The notes beneath the pieces are model-generated. The model had not been told where the DNA came from. It worked only from the letters and a program-made list of their open reading frames with translations, and ran no database searches. Shown here one piece after another: positions 17,248 to 26,765 of a stretch of 39,987 nucleotides of DNA. The stretch comes from Pseudomonadota bacterium (GTDB lineage: Bacteria; Pseudomonadota; Gammaproteobacteria; Burkholderiales; Casimicrobiaceae): the NCBI GenBank assembly GCA_018241765.1, contig JAFEDD010000003.1:1-39987 (forward strand). Direction: 5' to 3'. Each line of letters begins with the position of its first letter. Position 1 is the stretch's first letter. The position numbers and the translations under genes are program-made.

Positions 17248-19224
17248 TCAACCGAGCAGATGCAGCTCCATCGCCGTCACTGCGCGGCGAGCGCCGAGCA
17301 GCACCACGGCATCGCCGGCGGCGAACACGAAGTCGTCGTTCGGGCGAGGCAGACGTTCGCCGCCACGGCGAACCTGGGCCACTTCGACGGCCTCACCGGC
17401 GAACGATGCCGCCACGTCGCGCCACGAACGTCCCACCGCCTGTGCGCCTGCGCTGAGTTGCACGGTGTGCAGCACGCGGGCGTCCTCGTCGGTTTCGCTG
17501 CTGTCGCTCGCGCCACGGTAGAAGCCGAGCAGCAGACTGTAGTGCTCCTCGCGCACCGCACGGATGCGGCGCAGCACTCGGGCGAGCGGGGTGCCGAGCA
17601 GGAGCAGCGCGTGTGAGGCCAGCATCAGGCTGCCTTCGAGCACTTCGGGCACCACTTCGGTGGCGCCGGCCGCGAGCAGGCGCTCGATCGGTGCTTCATC
17701 GCTGGTGCGGGCGACGATCGGCAGATCGGCGCGAATGGTGCGCGCGGTGGCGATGATCTTCAGGGCCGCTTCTTCGTCGATGAAGGAGACGACCAGTGCG
17801 CGTGCGCGCTCGATGCCCGCGGCGATCAGCGCTTCGCGACGGCGACCATCGCCGAACACCACGTGGTGCGCACCCTCGCCACCGCCGATGGCTTCGCGCA
17901 CGCGCTCGGGGTCGTGGTCGAGCGCGACATAGGGCACGCCTTCGGTGTCCAGCAGCCGCGCCAGATACTGTCCGCTGCGACCGTAGCCGCAGATCACGAC
18001 GTGGTCTTGCCGCGTCATGCTCTCGGAGGCGATGCGAAAGATGTCGGCCGAACGGGCGAGGAAGTCGCGCGCCGTCAGGCGGCGGTTGATGGCCTCGGCG
18101 GCGCGCGGCAGGAACGGTGCGAGCAGCATCGAGATGACCATCGCGGCAATCGCGATCTGCGAGGCGTCGGAGGCGAGCGCGCCACTGGTGATGCCAAGCG
18201 TCAGCAGCACGAAGCCGAACTCGCCACCGGGCGCGAGCAGCGCGGCGGCGATGTTGGCCTCGGCGATCTTGAAGCGAAAGAGACGTACCAGGGGTTGCAC
18301 GAGCAGCGCCTTGCCGAAGAGCAGTACCGCGACGGCCGCGACGACCCAGCCGAGCTCGGCGACGACCAGTCCGCCGTCGAGCAGCATGCCGACGGAGATG
18401 AAGAACATGCCGAGCAGCACGTCGCGGAAGGGGCGGATGTCGTCTTCGACCTGCAACTTGTATTCCGTCTCCGCGATCAGCATGCCGGCGACGAACGCGC
18501 CGAGCGCGTGCGGCAGCCCGGCGATGTGACACAGCCATGCCAGCAGCAGCGTGACGAACAGCACGTTCAGCATGAAGAGCTCGCTCGTCTTGCTTTTGGC
18601 GACGAGGTGGAACCACGCCCGCAGCACGGGCTGACCGAACCCGAGCAGGAGCCCCAGCAGCACGACGACCTTGACGAACAGCCACGCGGTGTCGGTGAGG
18701 CTGACGGGCGCGCCGACTCCGAGCGCGGGCAGCAGGATCAGCAGCGGCACCACGGCGAGGTCCTGGAACAGGAGCACGCCGATCACGGCGCGGGCGACGG
18801 GCGCGGTCAGCTCGTTGCGTTCGGCCAGCAGCTTGATGCCGATGGCGGTCGAGGACATCGCGAGCGCGGCGCCGAGCACGGCGGCGGCGGCGACCGGTTG
18901 CCCGAGCGCGAACGCGAAGAGCGCGAAGAGCGCGAAGCAGAGCAGGAATTGCGCCGAGCCGAGCCCGAGCACCATGTGGCGCATCGCACGGAACTGCGGC
19001 AGCGAAAACTCGAGCCCGATCGAGAACATCAGGAACACGATGCCGTACTCGGCGATGGCGCGGGCCTGTTCCGAGTCCGGGATCAGCTTCAGGGCATGCG
19101 GGCCGAGCAGCATGCCCGCGGCGAGATAGCCGAGCAGCGAGGGCAGACCGAGCCGACGGCACACCCCCACTGCGAGCACGCTCGCCGCGAGGACGATGAC
19201 GACGATGGCCAGCGGCGATTCCAT
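17248..19224 (-). CDS. KefB/KefC-type monovalent cation:proton antiporter (CPA2 family)
   Basis: A 658-residue inner-membrane transporter. Residues about 1-380 form a CPA2 Na+/H+-exchanger domain with some twelve hydrophobic segments, including FSIGLEF and FQDLAVVPLL, both typical of KefB/YbaL proteins. A RCK/TrkA-N domain follows, with the Rossmann motif CGYGRSGQYLARLL, and a TrkA-C-like domain closes the protein (about residues 570-658). Such proteins exchange K+ for H+ and protect against electrophiles or acid stress; NAD(H) or glutathione adducts regulate some of them. No KefF/KefG ancillary gene is adjacent. A TAAATT box lies 6 nt before the ATG, hinting at a very short leader. Confidence 0.88.
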   Translation of the reverse strand: MESPLAIVVIVLAASVLAVGVCRRLGLPSLLGYLAAGMLLGPHALKLIPDSEQARAIAEYGIVFLMFSIGLEFSLPQFRAMRHMVLGLGSAQFLLCFALFALFAFALGQPVAAAAVLGAALAMSSTAIGIKLLAERNELTAPVARAVIGVLLFQDLAVVPLLILLPALGVGAPVSLTDTAWLFVKVVVLLGLLLGFGQPVLRAWFHLVAKSKTSELFMLNVLFVTLLLAWLCHIAGLPHALGAFVAGMLIAETEYKLQVEDDIRPFRDVLLGMFFISVGMLLDGGLVVAELGWVVAAVAVLLFGKALLVQPLVRLFRFKIAEANIAAALLAPGGEFGFVLLTLGITSGALASDASQIAIAAMVISMLLAPFLPRAAEAINRRLTARDFLARSADIFRIASESMTRQDHVVICGYGRSGQYLARLLDTEGVPYVALDHDPERVREAIGGGEGAHHVVFGDGRRREALIAAGIERARALVVSFIDEEAALKIIATARTIRADLPIVARTSDEAPIERLLAAGATEVVPEVLEGSLMLASHALLLLGTPLARVLRRIRAVREEHYSLLLGFYRGASDSSETDEDARVLHTVQLSAGAQAVGRSWRDVAASFAGEAVEVAQVRRGGERLPRPNDDFVFAAGDAVVLLGARRAVTAMELHLLG

Positions 19225-19292: not shown

Positions 19293-19420
19293 CATAACAA
19301 CTTTTCGCTGGAATGCGCATCCATGACGGGCTTGGAGCGAAGTTTCGACAAAAGTCGACTTTAAGGGAAAATCGCGCTCCAAGCCCGTTGTGGACGTGCT
19401 TTGAGGGGAAAGTTGTTATG
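19293..19420. repeat. Palindromic repeat family, copy A
   Basis: A 128-bp palindrome with two nested stems. The outer stem pairs 19293-19304 with 19409-19420 (12 bp). The inner stem pairs 19315-19339 with 19375-19399 (25 positions: three G-T wobbles, one mismatch). The loop carries AAAGTCGACTTT. The inner arms and core recur in copies B (22031-22134) and C (22981-23068). It lies 48 nt beyond the vapC stop codon and 68 nt upstream of the antiporter gene start. No protein should be called from it: short frames crossing it only translate the repeat. Confidence 0.8.
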
Positions 19421-19467
19421 TGGTTTTCGCGTGCCCGCCGCGTTGCAACATCGCCTTCGGGCTCGGG

Positions 19468-19869
19468 TCAGTGCCGCCAGACTTTGAGCCCGCGCAACGA
19501 TTCCATCGCGTCGAAGTCGTGATCGTTGTGCAGCAGCGCATGGTTGTGTTCGATGCAATACGCGGCTTGCAGAATGTCGATCGGGCTGGCCATGGTGATG
19601 CCGTGCGCTCGCAGCTCACGGTAGTGTCGTGCGGCGGCGCGGCACATGCCGTCGCCGCCGATGGTGACGACATCGAGCGCGCACATGACGCCCTCTGCGG
19701 CCCGATAGTCACGCTCGTGGCGAAAGCCGCGCAGCACTTCGAACAGCGCAAGATCGGCGATGGCGATCGGCGCTGCCGCCTCGTCGAGCAGTGCGGCGAG
19801 CCGCTCGACGGCGGGTGTGTCACGCCCTTGAAAGAAATCGATCCACACGCTGGAATCGACGAGGATCAC
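19468..19869 (-). CDS. vapC: VapC-type PIN-domain toxin
   Basis: A 133-residue PIN-domain ribonuclease, the toxin of a type II system. The acidic metal-binding residues are visible: Asp5 in ILVDSSVWID, Glu44 in ALFEVLRG, Asp98 in SPIDIL and Asp116/Asp118 in HNDHDFD. Such enzymes cut tRNA or rRNA in the cytoplasm when the antitoxin is degraded. The start ATG overlaps the stop of vapB (ATGA), giving coupled translation in the usual antitoxin-first order. A palindromic repeat follows the stop codon. Confidence 0.9.
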   Translation of the reverse strand: MILVDSSVWIDFFQGRDTPAVERLAALLDEAAAPIAIADLALFEVLRGFRHERDYRAAEGVMCALDVVTIGGDGMCRAAARHYRELRAHGITMASPIDILQAAYCIEHNHALLHNDHDFDAMESLRGLKVWRH

Positions 19870-20159
19870 GTCGAGGACACCTTCCGGGTCGCCGTACGCG
19901 CGTCGCCTTTCGCGCGTTTGCCGTAGGGAGGTGGTGGCGGGCTGTGCACCTTGGACGCGGTGGTGGCCCGCGCGGCAGGGGTTGGCAACGGCTCGTCATC
20001 CCACTGCAATTGGCCGCGCAGCGCAAGGATGTCGCGGTACGCCGCCTTGCGGGCGAGCAACTGCAAGCCCGCCGCGACCGCCTCGCGCTTGCTGGCGAAC
20101 GGGCCGGCGCGCATGGCGGCGTCCATCAACGCGTCGTCGATATCAATGTTGGTGCGCAT
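19866..20159 (-). CDS. vapB: VapB-type antitoxin
   Basis: A 97-residue antitoxin of the VapB family (resembling PF09957/DUF2191). The N-terminal MRTNIDIDDALMDAAM forms the ribbon-helix-helix-like DNA-binding half, and KREAVAAGLQLLARKAAYRDI continues the family pattern. The C-terminal 40 residues are an unusually long basic, proline-rich tail with a run of five prolines and GKRAKGD, presumably the toxin-wrapping part. The start was chosen at the family-like N-terminus, 33 nt downstream of a promoter/operator palindrome; the frame is open upstream but without family resemblance. It overlaps vapC by 4 bp. Confidence 0.85.
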   Translation of the reverse strand: MRTNIDIDDALMDAAMRAGPFASKREAVAAGLQLLARKAAYRDILALRGQLQWDDEPLPTPAARATTASKVHSPPPPPYGKRAKGDARTATRKVSST

Positions 20160-20174
20160 GATGGTGTCGCGGAT

Positions 20175-20200
20175 GTGTAAAAAGTGCGCACAGTATACAC
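20175..20200 (-). promoter_or_regulatory. Concentric palindromic operator and -10 box of vapBC
   Basis: Two inverted repeats share one centre (20187.5): the outer GTGTA/TACAC and the inner GTGCGCAC, each separated by exactly 4 nt. The minus-strand -10 candidate TATACT (20192-20197) lies inside the outer arm, so a VapB dimer pair bound here would block the promoter. The -35 region is weak. Autoregulation by the antitoxin complex is established for VapBC systems; this specific site is inferred. Confidence 0.6.
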
Positions 20201-20281
20201 ACGATTGCGATCGGCGTCGTTCCGCGTCATGCGGTCGGGCGCCCGCGAACGCGGCTTCGCAGGTTCGCCGATCGTGATCGG

Positions 20282-21832
20282 TCAGCGCCAGAGCCGCAGC
20301 AGTTGCCCGCTGTCGGTGGCGAGATAGAGCCAGCCGTCGGGACCCTGCTTGACGACGCGCATGCGCTGCCCGAGCGCTTTCACGACGGCGACTTCGTCCT
20401 TCGAAACGAAGGCGTTGCCGTTGAGCACGATGCGCCAGAGCGTGGTGCCGGCGAGGCCGCCGACGAAGGCGTTGCCTTGCCATCCGAGATCGTCGAATTT
20501 GCCGCCGGTGTAGAAAACGAGGCCGGACGGCGCGGTCGAGACCGGCAGCCAGGTCGTCACCGGCTCTTCGTAGGTCGGCGCATGCACGCCGCCGGTGCCG
20601 CCCGGGCGGCAGGACGGCGTGTTGGTGCCGGCCCAGTAGGGACAGCCGTAGCTCACCAGCGGCCAGCCGTAGTTGCGCCCCGGCAGCACGAAGTTCAGCT
20701 CATCGCCGCCGAGCGGGCCGTGTTCGGTGACCCACAGATCGTCGCTGCCCGGACGCATCGCCGCGCCTTGCGGGTTGCGATGGCCGTAGCTCCAGATTTC
20801 GGGCCGCGCGCCGGGGGTGGCGAAGGTCGGGTTGCCGGCCGGGATGGTGCCGTCGCGGTTGATGCGAATGACCTTGCCGAGCGTCTTCGTCAGATTCTGT
20901 GCGTTGTCGCTGGTGGGGGCACCGGGGTCGTCGGTCTGCCGCTCGCCGAGCGTCACCATCAGCGTCTTGTCGCTGCGAAACGCCAGGCGTGACCCAAAGT
21001 GCCCGTCGCCGCCGACCTTCGGCGTTTGCCGGTAGATCACCTGCGCGTTGCTGATGGTGTTGGCGGTGACGTTCAGGTCGCCGCGCGCGACGGCTGTGCC
21101 GGAGCCGCCGCTGCCGGTCTCCGAGAATGTCCAGTAGATGCGCGTGTTGCTGCTGCCGTCGTAGTCCGGGTCGAGTGCGACGTCGAGCAGGCCGCCCTGA
21201 CCGGAGGCGCTGAGGTTGGGCAGACCGGGGTTGATGTTGGCGGACTTGCTTGCGCCGTTGGCGCTGACGATGACCATGCTGCCGCCCTTCTGCGTGAACA
21301 GCATGCGGCCATCCGGCAGAAAGGCCATGCCCCACGGCGCGTTCAGCGTGACCGGCAACGGCGTGACGGTCAGCGGACCGGTGGCGTCGCTGGCGAGCGC
21401 GCCGCCGCAACTGCCGTTCAGATGGCCGCGCAGCAGCGCCCACGTGTTGCGCGGCGGGCTGCCGGTGATTGCGCCCGAGAGCACGCTCGGCCCCGTGACG
21501 CCCTGCATGGCGCGCACCACCATCAGACCGTCGCCGGTCGCGGTCGGCGCATTGCCGCTGCCGTCGAGGCGCAGGCTGCGATCGGCGATCATGCTGTCGA
21601 TGTGGCTTGCGATCTGGGCGGCATCGGTGCGCATGCCGCGCGGGTTGACCGCGTCGGCGACCAGCGCCGCGCCACTCAGCCCGAGCAGGCGGCGCACGAT
21701 GAGCACGCCGTCGGTGGCGGGGTTCCATGCGCCGTCCTGATCGATGTCGAGGTTGCACGCGGCGTGCGTGCCGCTCGCGACGAGCACGGCGATCAACGCG
21801 ACGGCGGCGGGTAGCGGGCGAGAGCGAATCAT
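20282..21832 (-). CDS. Secreted PQQ-dependent sugar dehydrogenase-like protein with dockerin-like N-terminus
   Basis: A 516-residue exported protein. A signal peptide ends near Ala24/Ala25. Residues 28-51 and 89-111 are two dockerin/EF-hand-like repeats: D29-D31-D33...D41-G then VLIVRRLLG, and D90...N94...D101-G then LMVVRAMQG. From about residue 158 onward is a six-bladed propeller of the glucose/sorbosone dehydrogenase (Aldose sugar dehydrogenase, YliI/Asd) family, with APWGMAFLPDGRMLFTQKGG, YGHRNPQGAAM and EHGPLGGDELN. It probably oxidises sugars in the periplasm with PQQ and Ca2+. Start: ATG with GGAGG at 3-nt spacing; an upstream ATG adds 33 residues before the signal peptide. No PQQ synthesis genes are in the window. 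Confidence 0.88.
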   Translation of the reverse strand: MIRSRPLPAAVALIAVLVASGTHAACNLDIDQDGAWNPATDGVLIVRRLLGLSGAALVADAVNPRGMRTDAAQIASHIDSMIADRSLRLDGSGNAPTATGDGLMVVRAMQGVTGPSVLSGAITGSPPRNTWALLRGHLNGSCGGALASDATGPLTVTPLPVTLNAPWGMAFLPDGRMLFTQKGGSMVIVSANGASKSANINPGLPNLSASGQGGLLDVALDPDYDGSSNTRIYWTFSETGSGGSGTAVARGDLNVTANTISNAQVIYRQTPKVGGDGHFGSRLAFRSDKTLMVTLGERQTDDPGAPTSDNAQNLTKTLGKVIRINRDGTIPAGNPTFATPGARPEIWSYGHRNPQGAAMRPGSDDLWVTEHGPLGGDELNFVLPGRNYGWPLVSYGCPYWAGTNTPSCRPGGTGGVHAPTYEEPVTTWLPVSTAPSGLVFYTGGKFDDLGWQGNAFVGGLAGTTLWRIVLNGNAFVSKDEVAVVKALGQRMRVVKQGPDGWLYLATDSGQLLRLWR

Positions 21833-21880
21833 GTGGCCTCCCGAAAGAGCGGTGATGGGGTTCCCCGGTGTGCCGCCGGC

Positions 21881-21911
21881 CGCCCTCGCCGCGCAGGGCT
21901 CGGCGAGGGCG
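21881..21911 (-). other. Strong hairpin in the leader of the sugar dehydrogenase gene
   Basis: A perfect 11-bp stem (CGCCCTCGCCG / CGGCGAGGGCG) with a 9-nt loop lies 48 nt upstream of the start codon, between the predicted promoter and the gene. No T tract follows. It would be in the 5' untranslated region and could affect translation or stability. Confidence 0.5.
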
Positions 21912-21930
21912 TCGGCACGTTGACGCGGCA

Positions 21931-21959
21931 AGTCTACCGTGCTGCCATGCCGTTGTCAT
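21931..21959 (-). promoter_or_regulatory. Predicted sigma-70 promoter of the sugar dehydrogenase gene
   Basis: On the minus strand ATGACA (21954-21959), a 17-nt spacer and TAGACT (21931-21936) match a -35/-10 pair at five and four of six positions. Transcription would begin near 21924, giving a leader of about 90 nt that contains the 21881-21911 hairpin. Together with copy B of the palindromic repeat, this accounts for the recognisable content of the 351-bp gap at 21833-22183; no gene was seen there. Confidence 0.45.
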
Positions 21960-22030
21960 TACCCCGTGGGGCGCGGCCTTCACGCGGCCGAACGTTGCTT
22001 GCGGAACGCGTTCGCCGCACCATCAGCTTT

Positions 22031-22134
22031 CATCGGAAACACCCATCCACAACGGGCTTGCAGCGCCAATTGGCGGAAACTCGACTTTTGGCGAAATGCG
22101 CGTGCAAGCCCGTTGTGGATGCGCATTTCCGCAA
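22031..22134. repeat. Palindromic repeat family, copy B
   Basis: A perfect 19-bp stem pairs 22044-22062 with 22103-22121, with a short outer pairing (CGGAAA at 22034-22039 with TTTCCG at 22126-22131). The 40-nt loop carries GAAACTCGACTTTTGG, matching the AAGTCGACTT core of copies A and C. Relative to copy C, three stem pairs are changed in both arms so that pairing is kept. It lies 50 nt beyond the stop codon of the minus-strand nitroreductase gene. Confidence 0.8.
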
Positions 22135-22183
22135 TAAGGCGTTGGTGAAATGACGCCGCTTTGGCGACCGCAGGGCGCGCTGC

Positions 22184-22909
22184 CTATGCGATCCAGCGGG
22201 TGAAATCCTCGACCGCGAGTCTCGGCGTCCGGAAGGCGTTCACGCTCGCCGTCTCGTCGGCGTACCCGAGCGAGAGTCCGCACACGAGGAGTTCGTCGTC
22301 ACCCATGCCGAGGATCGGCGCGATGATCGACGCGAAGCCATTCCATGCGGCTTGCGGACAACTGTGCAGCCCGCGGGCGCGGGCGGCGACCATGACGCTC
22401 TGGACGAACATGCCGCAATCGAGCAGGCTGCCGCGCCCGAGTGAGCGATGGATGCTGAAGAAGAGCCCGACCGGCGCATCGAAGAAGCGGAAGTTGCGCT
22501 GGTGCTGCGCGTGCATCGCGTCCTTGTCGGCGCGGGTGATGCCGAGCAACCCGTAGAGCCCCCAGCCGTTGTCGCGTCGACGCTGGAGGTAGGGCTCGAA
22601 CCACGTCGATGGGTAGTAGTCGTAGCTCTCGCGGTAGACCTCGGCGAGCGCCGGATCGGCGCGCAGTGCGTCGTGCGCGGCGCAGACCTCGCGCTCGATG
22701 CGGCCGCGTGCTACGCCTTCGACCACGTACACCCGCCACGGCTGCGTGTTGCTGCCGCTGGGCGCGCGGGCGGCGACGGCGAGGACTTCGGCGATCGTCT
22801 CGCGCGCCACCGGCGTCGGCAGAAAGGCGCGCATCGAACGACGGCTCGTGATGGCAGCATCGACGCTCGCGGCGTCAGGGGGGACGGTGGTGTCGGGCGG
22901 TGGGTTCAT
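22184..22909 (-). CDS. Nitroreductase-family FMN-dependent oxidoreductase
   Basis: A 241-residue cytoplasmic flavoprotein. FMN-binding features are SRRSMRAF near residues 23-30 (the basic pair contacting phosphate), APSGSNTQPWRVYVV, and the late GLHSCPQAAW and LSLGYADE elements. Proteins of this family reduce nitroaromatics, quinones or other electrophiles with NAD(P)H; the physiological substrate is not evident. It stands alone, flanked on both sides by copies of the palindromic repeat (B downstream, C upstream). The length is somewhat above the ~200-residue norm owing to an N-terminal extension and a middle insertion around DYYPSTWFEPYLQRRR. Confidence 0.87.
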   Translation of the reverse strand: MNPPPDTTVPPDAASVDAAITSRRSMRAFLPTPVARETIAEVLAVAARAPSGSNTQPWRVYVVEGVARGRIEREVCAAHDALRADPALAEVYRESYDYYPSTWFEPYLQRRRDNGWGLYGLLGITRADKDAMHAQHQRNFRFFDAPVGLFFSIHRSLGRGSLLDCGMFVQSVMVAARARGLHSCPQAAWNGFASIIAPILGMGDDELLVCGLSLGYADETASVNAFRTPRLAVEDFTRWIA

Positions 22910-22980
22910 GCGTGCACGGTGGGCGAGAGCGCGAAAACCAGGCGACGCGTGGTACGACGATGAGGTGGCTTTTGGACGAA

Positions 22981-23068
22981 ACCCGCATCCATGACGGGCT
23001 TGGAGCGAAATTTCAACGGAAGTCGACTTCGTGCCATTTCAGGCGCCAAGCCTGTCATGGATGCGGGT
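22981..23068. repeat. Palindromic repeat family, copy C
   Basis: A 23-bp stem pairs 22981-23003 with 23046-23068, broken only by one G-T wobble (22996/23053). The 42-nt loop contains GGAAGTCGACTTCG, the core shared with copies A and B. The right arm ends 18 nt beyond the kup stop codon on the minus strand, so the transcript end of kup would fold into this structure. It also lies upstream of the nitroreductase start. Confidence 0.82.
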
Positions 23069-23086
23069 TCGACGCAAAAGCTGTGC

Positions 23087-25015
23087 TCACAGTTTGATCT
23101 GAGCGCCGAGTTCGAGCACGCGGTTGGTCGGAATCTGGAAGTACGCGGTGGCCGACTGCGCGTTGCGCGCCATCAGGCTGAACAGGCGCTGGCGCCACAC
23201 CGAAATGCGCTTCGAGGGGCCCGGCACCAGCACCTCGCGGGAGACGAAAAACGAGGTGTCCATCATGTCGAAGGTGATGCCGTGCTCGCGTGCGGCGAGC
23301 GTCAGTGCCTTCGGAATGTCCGGCGTGTTCATGAAGCCGTAGCGCACAACCATCTTGTAGAAGCCGCGCCCGAGATCCTCGATCTCGACTCGGCGCGCGC
23401 GCGTGACCAGCGGAATGTCCTCGAACTGCACGTGCAGCACGACGTTGCGCTCGTGCAGCACCTTGTTGTGCTTCAGGTTGTGCAGCATCGCCGGGGGCAT
23501 CTCGTCGGGCGTCGAGGTCATGAACACGGCGGTGCCCTGCACGCGGGTGGCGTCGCGCGAAAGCCCGTCGATCATCGGCGCCAGCGGCAGCGCGGTTTGC
23601 TTGCGCTGCTCGGCCATCAGGTTGCGGCCTCGCTTCCAGGTCGTCATGAAGACGAGCACCGCGCAGGCAACGAGCAGCGGCAGCCAGCCACCGTCGGGAA
23701 TCTTGATGGCGGTGGAGGACACCAGCGCGATGTCGATGATGAAGAACGCACCGACCGAGAACAGGGCCAGCGCGCGGTTCCATTTCCAAAGCCCGAGCGC
23801 GACGATCGAGAAGAGGACGGTGTCGATCAGCATCGCGCCGGTGACCGCGAGGCCGTAGGCGGCGGCCAGATTGTCACTGCTGCGGAACGCGAGCACCACG
23901 ATGAACACGAGCGAAAAGAGCATCCAGTTGATCGCCGGCAGGTAGATCTGCCCTTCCTGCTGGTGCGACGTGTGGATGACCTTCATGCGCGGCAGGAAGC
24001 CGAGCTGGATGCCCTGGCGCGCGATCGAGAAAGCGCCGGCGATGACCGACTGCGAGGCGATGACGGTGGCCGTTCCGGCCAGCACCACCAGCGGAATCAT
24101 CCAGGCATGAGGCACCTGGTCGTAGAACGGATGCATCTTGCACGCCGCAGCCGGATTCGCCGCGGTTTGCGCCGCGCAAGTCTTCAGGATCAGCGCGCCC
24201 TGCCCGAAATAGTTCAGCACCAGCGCCGGCATCACCCAGCCGAACCACGCCACCCGAATGGGACGGGCGCCGAAGTGGCCCATGTCGGCGTACAGCGCTT
24301 CGGCGCCGGTCAGCGCCAGCACGGCGGAGCCGAGCACGATCAGCGAGAGCTTCGGATGCTCGATGAAGAAGCCGATCGCGTGCCGCGGATTGAGCGCCGC
24401 GAGCACCGAGAAATTGCTGCTGATGTGATAGATGCCCAGCGCGCCAAGCACGAAGAACCAGAGCATCATGATCGGCCCGAACCAACTGCTGACACGCCCG
24501 GTGCCGCTGCGCTGCACGAAAAAGAGCCCGCTCAGAATCAGGAGCGCCGAAGGCATCACGAACACATGCAGGTCCGGATTGACCTCGGTCAGCCCCTCCA
24601 TCGCGCTCAGTACCGACACCGCCGGCGTGATGATCGAATCGCCAAAGAACAACGCGACGCCGAAGATGCCGACCAGCGTCAGGTAGCGGCGCTGGCGCGG
24701 CGTCTTCACTGCCCGCAATGCGAGCGCAAGCAGCGCCATGGTGCCGCCCTCGCCCTGGTTGTCGGCGCGCAGGATCACGAAGGCGTACTTCACCGACACC
24801 ACGATGGTCAGCGCCCAGAACACGATGGACAGCAGCCCCATCACGTTGGCGGGCGTGAACGGCACCGAATGGTTGGCGTTGAAGAACACCTCCTTCAACG
24901 TGTAGAGCGGCGAGGTGCCGAGGTCACCGTACACCACGCCGACCGCCCCGACCGCCAGTGCGGCGAGGCGGCGACCGGGCATCGCGGGCGCGCCAGGGGA
25001 CGCGGTTGCACTCAT
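23087..25015 (-). CDS. kup: Low-affinity potassium transport system protein Kup
   Basis: A 642-residue K+/H+ symporter of the KUP/HAK/KT family. Near the N-terminus [19 protein letters not shown] is the family signature. About twelve hydrophobic segments follow, with [14 protein letters not shown] and [21 protein letters not shown], and a cytoplasmic C-terminal domain of some 200 residues. The start was placed at MSATASPG because family homology begins just after; an in-frame ATG 30 bases upstream is an alternative, and neither has a strong ribosome site. It is divergent from ahcY, and the palindromic repeat copy C follows its stop. It imports K+, notably at low pH. Confidence 0.93.
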
Positions 25016-25104
25016 GGATTCATTGCGTTCGCCGGAAACGAGCATTGTATGTTGCGTTCGCAGCAGAAAAATCCGTGCGCGCAGACTCAGGGAGGCCGAC
25101 CCGA

Positions 25105-25110
25105 TAGAAT
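25105..25110 (+). promoter_or_regulatory. -10 box of the ahcY operon promoter
   Basis: TAGAAT at 25105-25110 matches five of six bases of the sigma-70 -10 consensus and lies 10 nt before the first base of the riboswitch stem P1, exactly where a transcript starting near 25117 would need it. The -35 region is poor. Confidence 0.55.
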
Positions 25111-25119
25111 GGCGAGCGT

Positions 25120-25211
25120 GTTCGAGGAGCGCTGCACCCGACGTCGTCGGCCAGGCTCGAACGCCAGCGGCATCCCTCGCCGCAAATGCATGTACAACGG
25201 CGCTCGCAGTT
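25120..25211 (+). ncRNA. S-adenosylhomocysteine (SAH) riboswitch
   Basis: The leader folds as the known SAH aptamer. P1 is GTTCGAG (25120-25126) with CTCGAAC (25156-25162). P2 is CCGAC (25138-25142) with GTCGG (25146-25150). The pseudoknot P4 pairs GAGCGC (25127-25132) with GCGCTC (25200-25205). The hallmark strings GAGGAGCGCTGCA, CCAGGCTCGAA and AACGGCGCTC are all present. An extra hairpin (25167-25171 with 25179-25183) fills the variable region. SAH riboswitches switch expression on when SAH accumulates, which fits ahcY, the enzyme that removes it. About 123 nt separate the aptamer from the ahcY start; a short stem (ACGCACC / GGTGCGT) lies in that interval, but no clear terminator or sequestered ribosome site is evident. 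Confidence 0.92.
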
Positions 25212-25334
25212 CTGGTGACGGCTGTCACGAGGCTCGCGAGCGAGCGGCACGCACCCGGTGCGTCGATGGGGCAATGCCCGCCGCGTCACGCTGCGCCCGG
25301 TGTCGTCGGCCATCACCATCCGTTGGAGCAGACC

Positions 25335-26765
<1,431 letters not shown>

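Follow-up and report, generated by a model that had tools for sequence, protein, structure and literature searches.

The repeat elements of the window

The window analysed here is a 39,987-nucleotide (nt) stretch of contig JAFEDD010000003.1 from a Casimicrobiaceae genome (GCA_018241765.1), and it carries three copies (A, B and C) of a dyad-symmetric repeat element of about 122 base pairs (bp). We refer to the window's own genome as G000 and to the other genomes of its genus as G001-G016 (17 genus genomes in total). All three copies were confirmed, and B and C proved longer than the original prediction, made from the sequence, had given. The family model R1 matched them with E values of 2.6e-29 to 6.8e-27, although R1 was built from 42 copies that include these three, and their own scores are not independent. 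Because the element is a dyad, the copies match the model on both strands. The copies and their neighbours are listed below, with k denoting distance from the element centre.

17248-19224, strand -: Na+/H+ exchanger gene (Pfam), neighbour of copy A
19296..19418, unstranded: element copy A, a dyad of about 122 bp with one inserted base; R1 97.8 bits on +, 81.7 on -
19352..19361, unstranded: central palindrome AAGTCGACTT of copy A
19468-19869, strand -: PIN-domain gene (Pfam), second neighbour of copy A
22021..22144, unstranded: element copy B, CA variant at k32/k31 in both arms; R1 90.8 and 88.4 bits on the two strands
22050..22051, strand +: left-arm k32-k31 dinucleotide of copy B, partners 22114-22115
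22078..22087, unstranded: centre AACTCGACTT of copy B
22184-22909, strand -: nitroreductase gene, with copy B on its 3' side
22966..23084, unstranded: element copy C, TG variant at k32/k31 in both arms; R1 90.1 and 80.7 bits on the two strands
22992..22993, strand +: left-arm k32-k31 dinucleotide of copy C, partners 23056-23057
23020..23029, unstranded: central palindrome AAGTCGACTT of copy C
23087-25228, strand -: kup, with copy C 2 nt to its 3' side

Every base that had been quoted for copies B and C was correct: 22050 C/22115 G, 22051 A/22114 T and 22061 C/22104 G in copy B, and 22992 T/23057 A, 22993 G/23056 C and 23003 G/23046 C in copy C. At two of these positions copy A pairs T19324 with G19390 and G19325 with T19389. 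The PIN-domain gene beside copy A and an adjoining VapB-antitoxin gene, together at 19468-20168 (-), are likely a type II toxin-antitoxin pair. Copies B and C (22021-23084) flank a single nitroreductase gene at a distance of about 945 bp, closer than any pair measured in G005 or G012.

Family, anatomy and arm words

Elements of the family have a near-constant length. Moving inward, CAGCTTTT and an A/T block come first, followed by an arm word of about 20 bp and a free spacer, then another A/T block (AAA or TTT), a further spacer and, at the centre, AGTCGACT; beyond it the order is mirrored. Each element thereby holds two inverted arm words within the fixed frame CAGCTTTT...AGTCGACT...AAAAGCTG. 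In the alignments, the conserved blocks were sharp and the adjoining spacers free to vary.

When copy B was used as a query against G000, at least 40 distinct places were found at E <=5.3e-4, copies A and B included (40 of the 150 candidates scored), a result well beyond chance. A sample of 431.6 kilobases (kb) of the same genome, made up of the window, contig C22 to base 320,000, C32 and part of C33, held 25 full elements and 4 partial ones; scaled to 3.24 megabases, this gives about 190 elements. Across the genus, we estimate that the family occupies hundreds of intergenic sites. A second model, R2, built from 66 elements of three species, matched 16 of the 17 genus genomes, G002 and G010 with five rows each (both strands counted), and gave no match in G016. 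Under stricter filters, an order-level draw of 150 genomes contained three with matches, all of this genus, and the other 147 had none. The exact frame CTTTT-N45..49-AGTCGACT-N45..49-AAAAG occurred in 11 of the 17 genus genomes, at 3 to 105 places each, and in none of 47 other-genus genomes of the family, with the reversed control at zero in all 64. Among 369 genomes of the class, the exact frame was found only in G000, and the reversed control once in each of four genomes. Six IMG/VR contigs also fit the frame pattern; their dyad pairing was only 0.19-0.36, and we took these candidate viral carriers as chance matches. Among the papers listed by searches of an open-access library, none dealt with this repeat.

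The arm word differed between genomes. It reads CGCATCCAYRACGGGCTTG in G000, about GCCCATTnnAATnGGGCT in G005, G012 and G001, and AACGACCnnnnnnGGTCGTT in G013 and G008. Within genomes, arm-word identity was 0.82 (G000), 0.53 (G005), 0.46 (G012) and 0.53 (G013), and between G013 and the other genomes it was 0.28-0.34; by this comparison the G013/G008 word is distinct from the others. Frame identity was 0.64-0.72 throughout, spacer identity 0.29-0.41, with the top value within G000, and the within-genome identity of the elements 0.52-0.63. Since the spacers stay at 0.29-0.41, gene conversion or copying of whole elements is unlikely. Some of the right arms in G000 form a sub-group with about TGGACGTCATTT, which is shorter by one base than TGGATGCGGCTTT. 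The k32-k31 dinucleotide of G000 was CA, TG or TA in 173 of 186 arms, and CG was rare (6).

We also examined base composition along the element. A/T content had a period of about 9.5 bp in each of the four sampled species, and 2 of 5000 position shuffles gave a mean profile as strong, against a null that permutes single positions and is lenient. Among 54 elements of G005 and G012, the two strongest column couplings, and four of the first nine, fell within A/T blocks, the rest being mostly between neighbours. This preference for AAA or TTT over mixtures reads as a DNA-shape signature.

Matching between the two arms

The original prediction had interpreted the differences between copies B and C, at k32, k31 and k21, as three compensatory changes that point to selection for a folded RNA or DNA cruciform. 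We compared the arms of 93 unique full G000 elements with 2000 null values obtained by orientation-free re-pairing. Over all arm positions, the observed value was 0.648 against a null of 0.650 (1386 of 2000 null values as high), whereas k31 and k32 together gave 0.624 against 0.507 (2/2000), an excess that persisted when the three window copies were removed (90 elements, 1/2000). The third pair, k21, deviated in the opposite direction (0.301 against 0.428, 14/2000 as low). The same k32-k31 dinucleotide stood on both arms in 41 of 93 elements against 27.4 expected (P 0.001). Two of the three proposed pairs therefore match above chance and the third does not: arm changes are no more compensatory than chance over the whole arm and at k21, but they are at k32/k31.

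The other species pointed in the same direction at k31 and k32, with observed and null values of 0.500 and 0.413 in G005 (33 elements), 0.527 and 0.399 in G012 (28) and 0.424 and 0.321 in G013 (33); the null reached the observed value 130, 34 and 85 times in 2000, respectively, and only G012 passes the 5% level alone. Across the four species, k31 had the highest combined z of 59 positions (4.1), followed by k39 (3.0) and k27 (2.9), with k41 the lowest (-2.2). Single-species outliers occurred at the nearly invariant positions k53 in G000 (z 4.8) and k27 in G012 (z 5.7). We regard the k32/k31 matching as real but modest. Our earlier whole-arm shuffles and Fisher p values for k31/k32 had fixed orientation by profile and were set aside as biased: T-G and C-A describe one and the same mixed element, seen from opposite strands. 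For the same reason, the wobble pairs of copy A are not by themselves evidence for folding, as T-G on one strand of a palindrome is C-A on the other.

A fold kept by compensatory change can draw on the k31/k32 matching, on the arm word as a region, which was raised in G005, G012 and G013 (z 2.2 each) and not in G000 (0.4), and on a consensus that can fold with 15 pairs. Set against these, the two arms vary independently over the whole arm in the 93 elements, k21 runs the other way, no covariation (local hairpins) was found inside single arms, and the real elements fold no better than arm chimeras (-56.8 for 93 elements against -56.1 for 367 chimeras; p 0.14). Since the two sides vary independently over the whole arm, selection for a folded RNA or cruciform is not supported as a general rule, and we consider this explanation very unlikely.

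Chromosomal places, spacing and a predicted reader protein

Genes for the location counts were predicted with a codon-usage caller made for this analysis. Full elements lay within 100 nt downstream of a stop codon in 44 of 64 cases in G000, 23 of 33 in G005, 15 of 28 in G012 and 25 of 33 in G013, in samples of which that of G000 was partly, and that of G013 was, taken from stretches chosen at matches. In the same genomes, 1/64, 1/33, 0/28 and 1/33 were inside a called gene, so the copies are mainly intergenic, as had been supposed, and 9/64, 4/33, 7/28 and 6/33 lay between divergent genes. Transcription terminators or 3' mRNA stabilisers would account for the position after stop codons but not for the elements between divergent genes. 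A terminator-like stem with a T run was found inside the element at 0/65, 2/38, 2/22 and 1/31 gene ends, and such a site already preceded the element at 9 of 156 gene ends. Terminator-like sites are, however, also rare at gene ends without an element (7/140 in G005 and 18/230 in G000), which makes this test a weak one. Taken together, a terminator or stabiliser role appears highly improbable.

The 3' bias also fits strong sites dedicated to gyrase that would remove supercoils downstream of genes, as do the symmetry, the 122-bp length and the periodic A/T content. For Escherichia coli gyrase, a symmetric motif of 130 bp with a periodic region on each flank has been described, with enrichment downstream of transcribed operons and in BIME-2 (PMC6379681). 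That motif is reported there as degenerate with a period of 10.75 bp (PMC6379681), unlike the 9.5 bp found here, and the present elements are sharply conserved, carry a species-specific word and are known from sequence alone. An arm word that changes between species would not be expected for gyrase, and we consider gyrase sites distinctly unlikely.

We then examined whether elements occupy the same places in different species, scoring reciprocal-best gene pairs for a 3' element in both genomes, the first only, the second only or neither. Between G000 and G005, the counts were 12/2/10/142 among 166 pairs (p 8.5e-11), with one element between convergent genes counted twice, leaving 11 distinct shared places. 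Between G005 and G013, whose arm words differ most, they were 3/0/0/24 among 27 pairs (p 3e-4). The small comparisons G005-G012 (0/1/0/1) and G012-G013 (0/0/0/2) held no shared place. The place of copy C, 3' of kup, was occupied in six other species (G005, G012, G015, G013 and G001 by R1, and G008 by dyad and by eye). By eye, no element was seen 3' of kup in G007, G011 and G002, and the region looked degenerate in G004 and G014; G003 and G010 were limited by contig ends. Kept places, together with sharp blocks beside free spacers, support the earlier view that this is not a decaying repeat.

At the 11 shared places of G000 and G005, each element scored best with its own genome's profile among three (G000, G005 and G013), and the same held for four pairs with G013, one G013 element reaching only 20 bits; these profiles were trained on samples holding the scored elements, and a fifth G013 pair re-pairs elements already scored. 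Orthology did not make G000 and G005 elements more similar than cross-species pairs taken at random (0.529 against 0.515 for 8 pairs, P 0.17).

The usual accounts of dispersed bacterial palindromes are mobile repeats and RNA hairpins. We considered REPIN- or MITE-like non-autonomous palindromes, spread in trans by a transposase such as RAYT whose preferred sequence depends on the species. The intergenic location, the estimated hundreds of copies, the inverted arms and the species-specific sequence are features common to REPINs; Y1_Tnp genes occur in 15 of the 17 genus genomes, and the presence of single elements varies between species. REPINs are described as showing common compensatory changes and as randomly distributed in extragenic space (PMC3116915; compared also via PMC2817692). 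In the present family, compensatory change is confined to two positions, length is near-constant, places are conserved across species, and spacing is even in two species, unlike the random distribution described (PMC3116915). None of 21 Y1_Tnp loci examined (of 44 matches, some loci being cut by contig ends) was flanked by two copies, and two of the 21 held one copy within the locus, one of these partial. G009 has elements and no Y1_Tnp match. By eye, the 42-copy alignment showed no conserved GTAG/GTGG head, GTGG occurring only within CA-variant arms. Within-genome identity is only 0.52-0.63. Eight gene pairs (involving six distinct elements of G005) have an element in G005 and none in G000; their flanks differ too, and no clean empty site was seen by eye. 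Mobile palindromes are unlikely in our assessment. ERIC and similar long palindromes, about 120 bp and intergenic, resemble the elements in both respects.

Spacing was compared with random choice among intergenic gaps (5000 draws, contiguous stretches). In G005, 33 elements over 380 kb had a coefficient of variation (CV) of 0.48 against 0.90 expected (0/5000), and another 400 kb with 30 elements gave 0.55 (3/5000); in G012, 22 elements over 340 kb gave 0.57 (59/5000). Mean spacing in these two evenly spaced species was 11-16 kb, and the stretches measured held one site per about 10-18 kb.

Even spacing in two species, genome-wide word change and restriction to one genus would also suit DNA uptake tags that label self DNA for uptake in natural transformation, their dialect being driven by the receptor as in Neisseriaceae. 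DNA uptake sequences (DUS) are tags of 10-12 bp that occur about once per kb. The present elements, with three palindromes in a fixed frame and one 122-bp site per 10-18 kb, are about ten times longer and rarer. DUS dialects share with them a genome-wide word that differs between related species and inverted pairs between genes; inverted DUS pairs have been associated with terminators, and intragenic DUS are described as common (PMC3630211), whereas in the counts of full elements given above these are almost never in genes. We consider uptake tags quite unlikely. None of REPINs, DUS dialects and the gyrase motif fits all of the features tested.

The reading that we tentatively prefer, at somewhat below an even chance, is that a predicted sequence-specific nucleoprotein complex with twofold symmetry recognises the element, about 122 bp long, as double-stranded DNA. 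The parts of this site would be a pair of inverted arm words, each about 20 bp, the central AGTCGACT palindrome, the outer CAGCTTTT ends and the A/T blocks every 9.5 bp or so. A putative trans-acting DNA-binding protein would read the arm word, and its drift would drag the sites along. The tendency of k32 and k31 to match between arms suggests that both arms may meet in one complex. From the even spacing, which alone carries this step, we infer that the sites probably serve chromosome organisation and not the regulation of single genes; they could be anchors, domain ends or places of supercoil relief. Sites following their reader protein fit the inherited places, the change of the genome-wide word from species to species, the fixed geometry with phased A/T content and, in two species, the even spacing. 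A more specific version is possible but doubtful: a genus-specific chromosome-organising system of hundreds of 122-bp, nucleosome-like wrapped sites, about every 12 kb, each with two synapsed operator words that would explain the matched k31/k32, a fast-evolving dedicated reader protein, and a word changed in place between species.

Several observations weigh against a reader-bound, chromosome-organising site. Spacing was not significantly even in G000 (17 elements over 320 kb, CV 0.73, 872/5000), the window contig gave no such signal (7 elements over 80 kb), and copies B and C lie within 1 kb of each other. The null behind the A/T period is the lenient one noted above, and 9.5 bp is below the helical repeat. 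The 3' bias could instead point to a transcription-linked role. Places were less clearly shared between G000 and G013 (2/4/2/47, p 0.055) and G000 and G012 (0/3/1/10), and of the 22 G005 gene ends that have an element, 10 lack one in G000; since presence differs between species, single sites are dispensable. The slightly higher spacer identity in G000 (0.41) leaves some recent shared origin in that genome possible. Arm-word identity between G000 and G005 (0.51) is as high as within G005 and G012, and G000 elements reach 50-75 bits with the G005 profile. The G000 word therefore looks like a sharpened form of the G005 word rather than a distinct one, which weakens the notion of a new word at every shared place, and the evidence for a word clearly replaced in place comes from the five G013 gene pairs and from kup in G013 and G008.

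Inherited places with a changing word, and even spacing in two species, point to a functional set of sites that tracks its reader. If a protein does read the sites, the genus would show, as a natural experiment, how sites across a chromosome keep up with a DNA-binding protein that changes, and it may hold a new chromosome-organising factor.

At gathering score, no Rfam family fell on the window copies; the sole match in the window was an SAH riboswitch elsewhere (RF01057, 57.2 bits; 25118-25212, +), upstream of an open reading frame at 25335-26765 (+). In some own-genome stretches, one-armed elements occur in which the centre and a single outer end are retained (L170 at 14018, L178 at 2005 and 2752, and L184 at 16371). 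We considered half elements as ends of a bigger transposon, and by eye those of L178 and L227 look like elements missing part of one arm; no transposase search was made between the halves. A second, REP-like repeat, GTAGCCTCGAT...ATCGAGGCTAC, gave 15 word matches in 829.6 kb of own-genome stretches and lies next to two of the one-armed elements in L178 (1712-3000).

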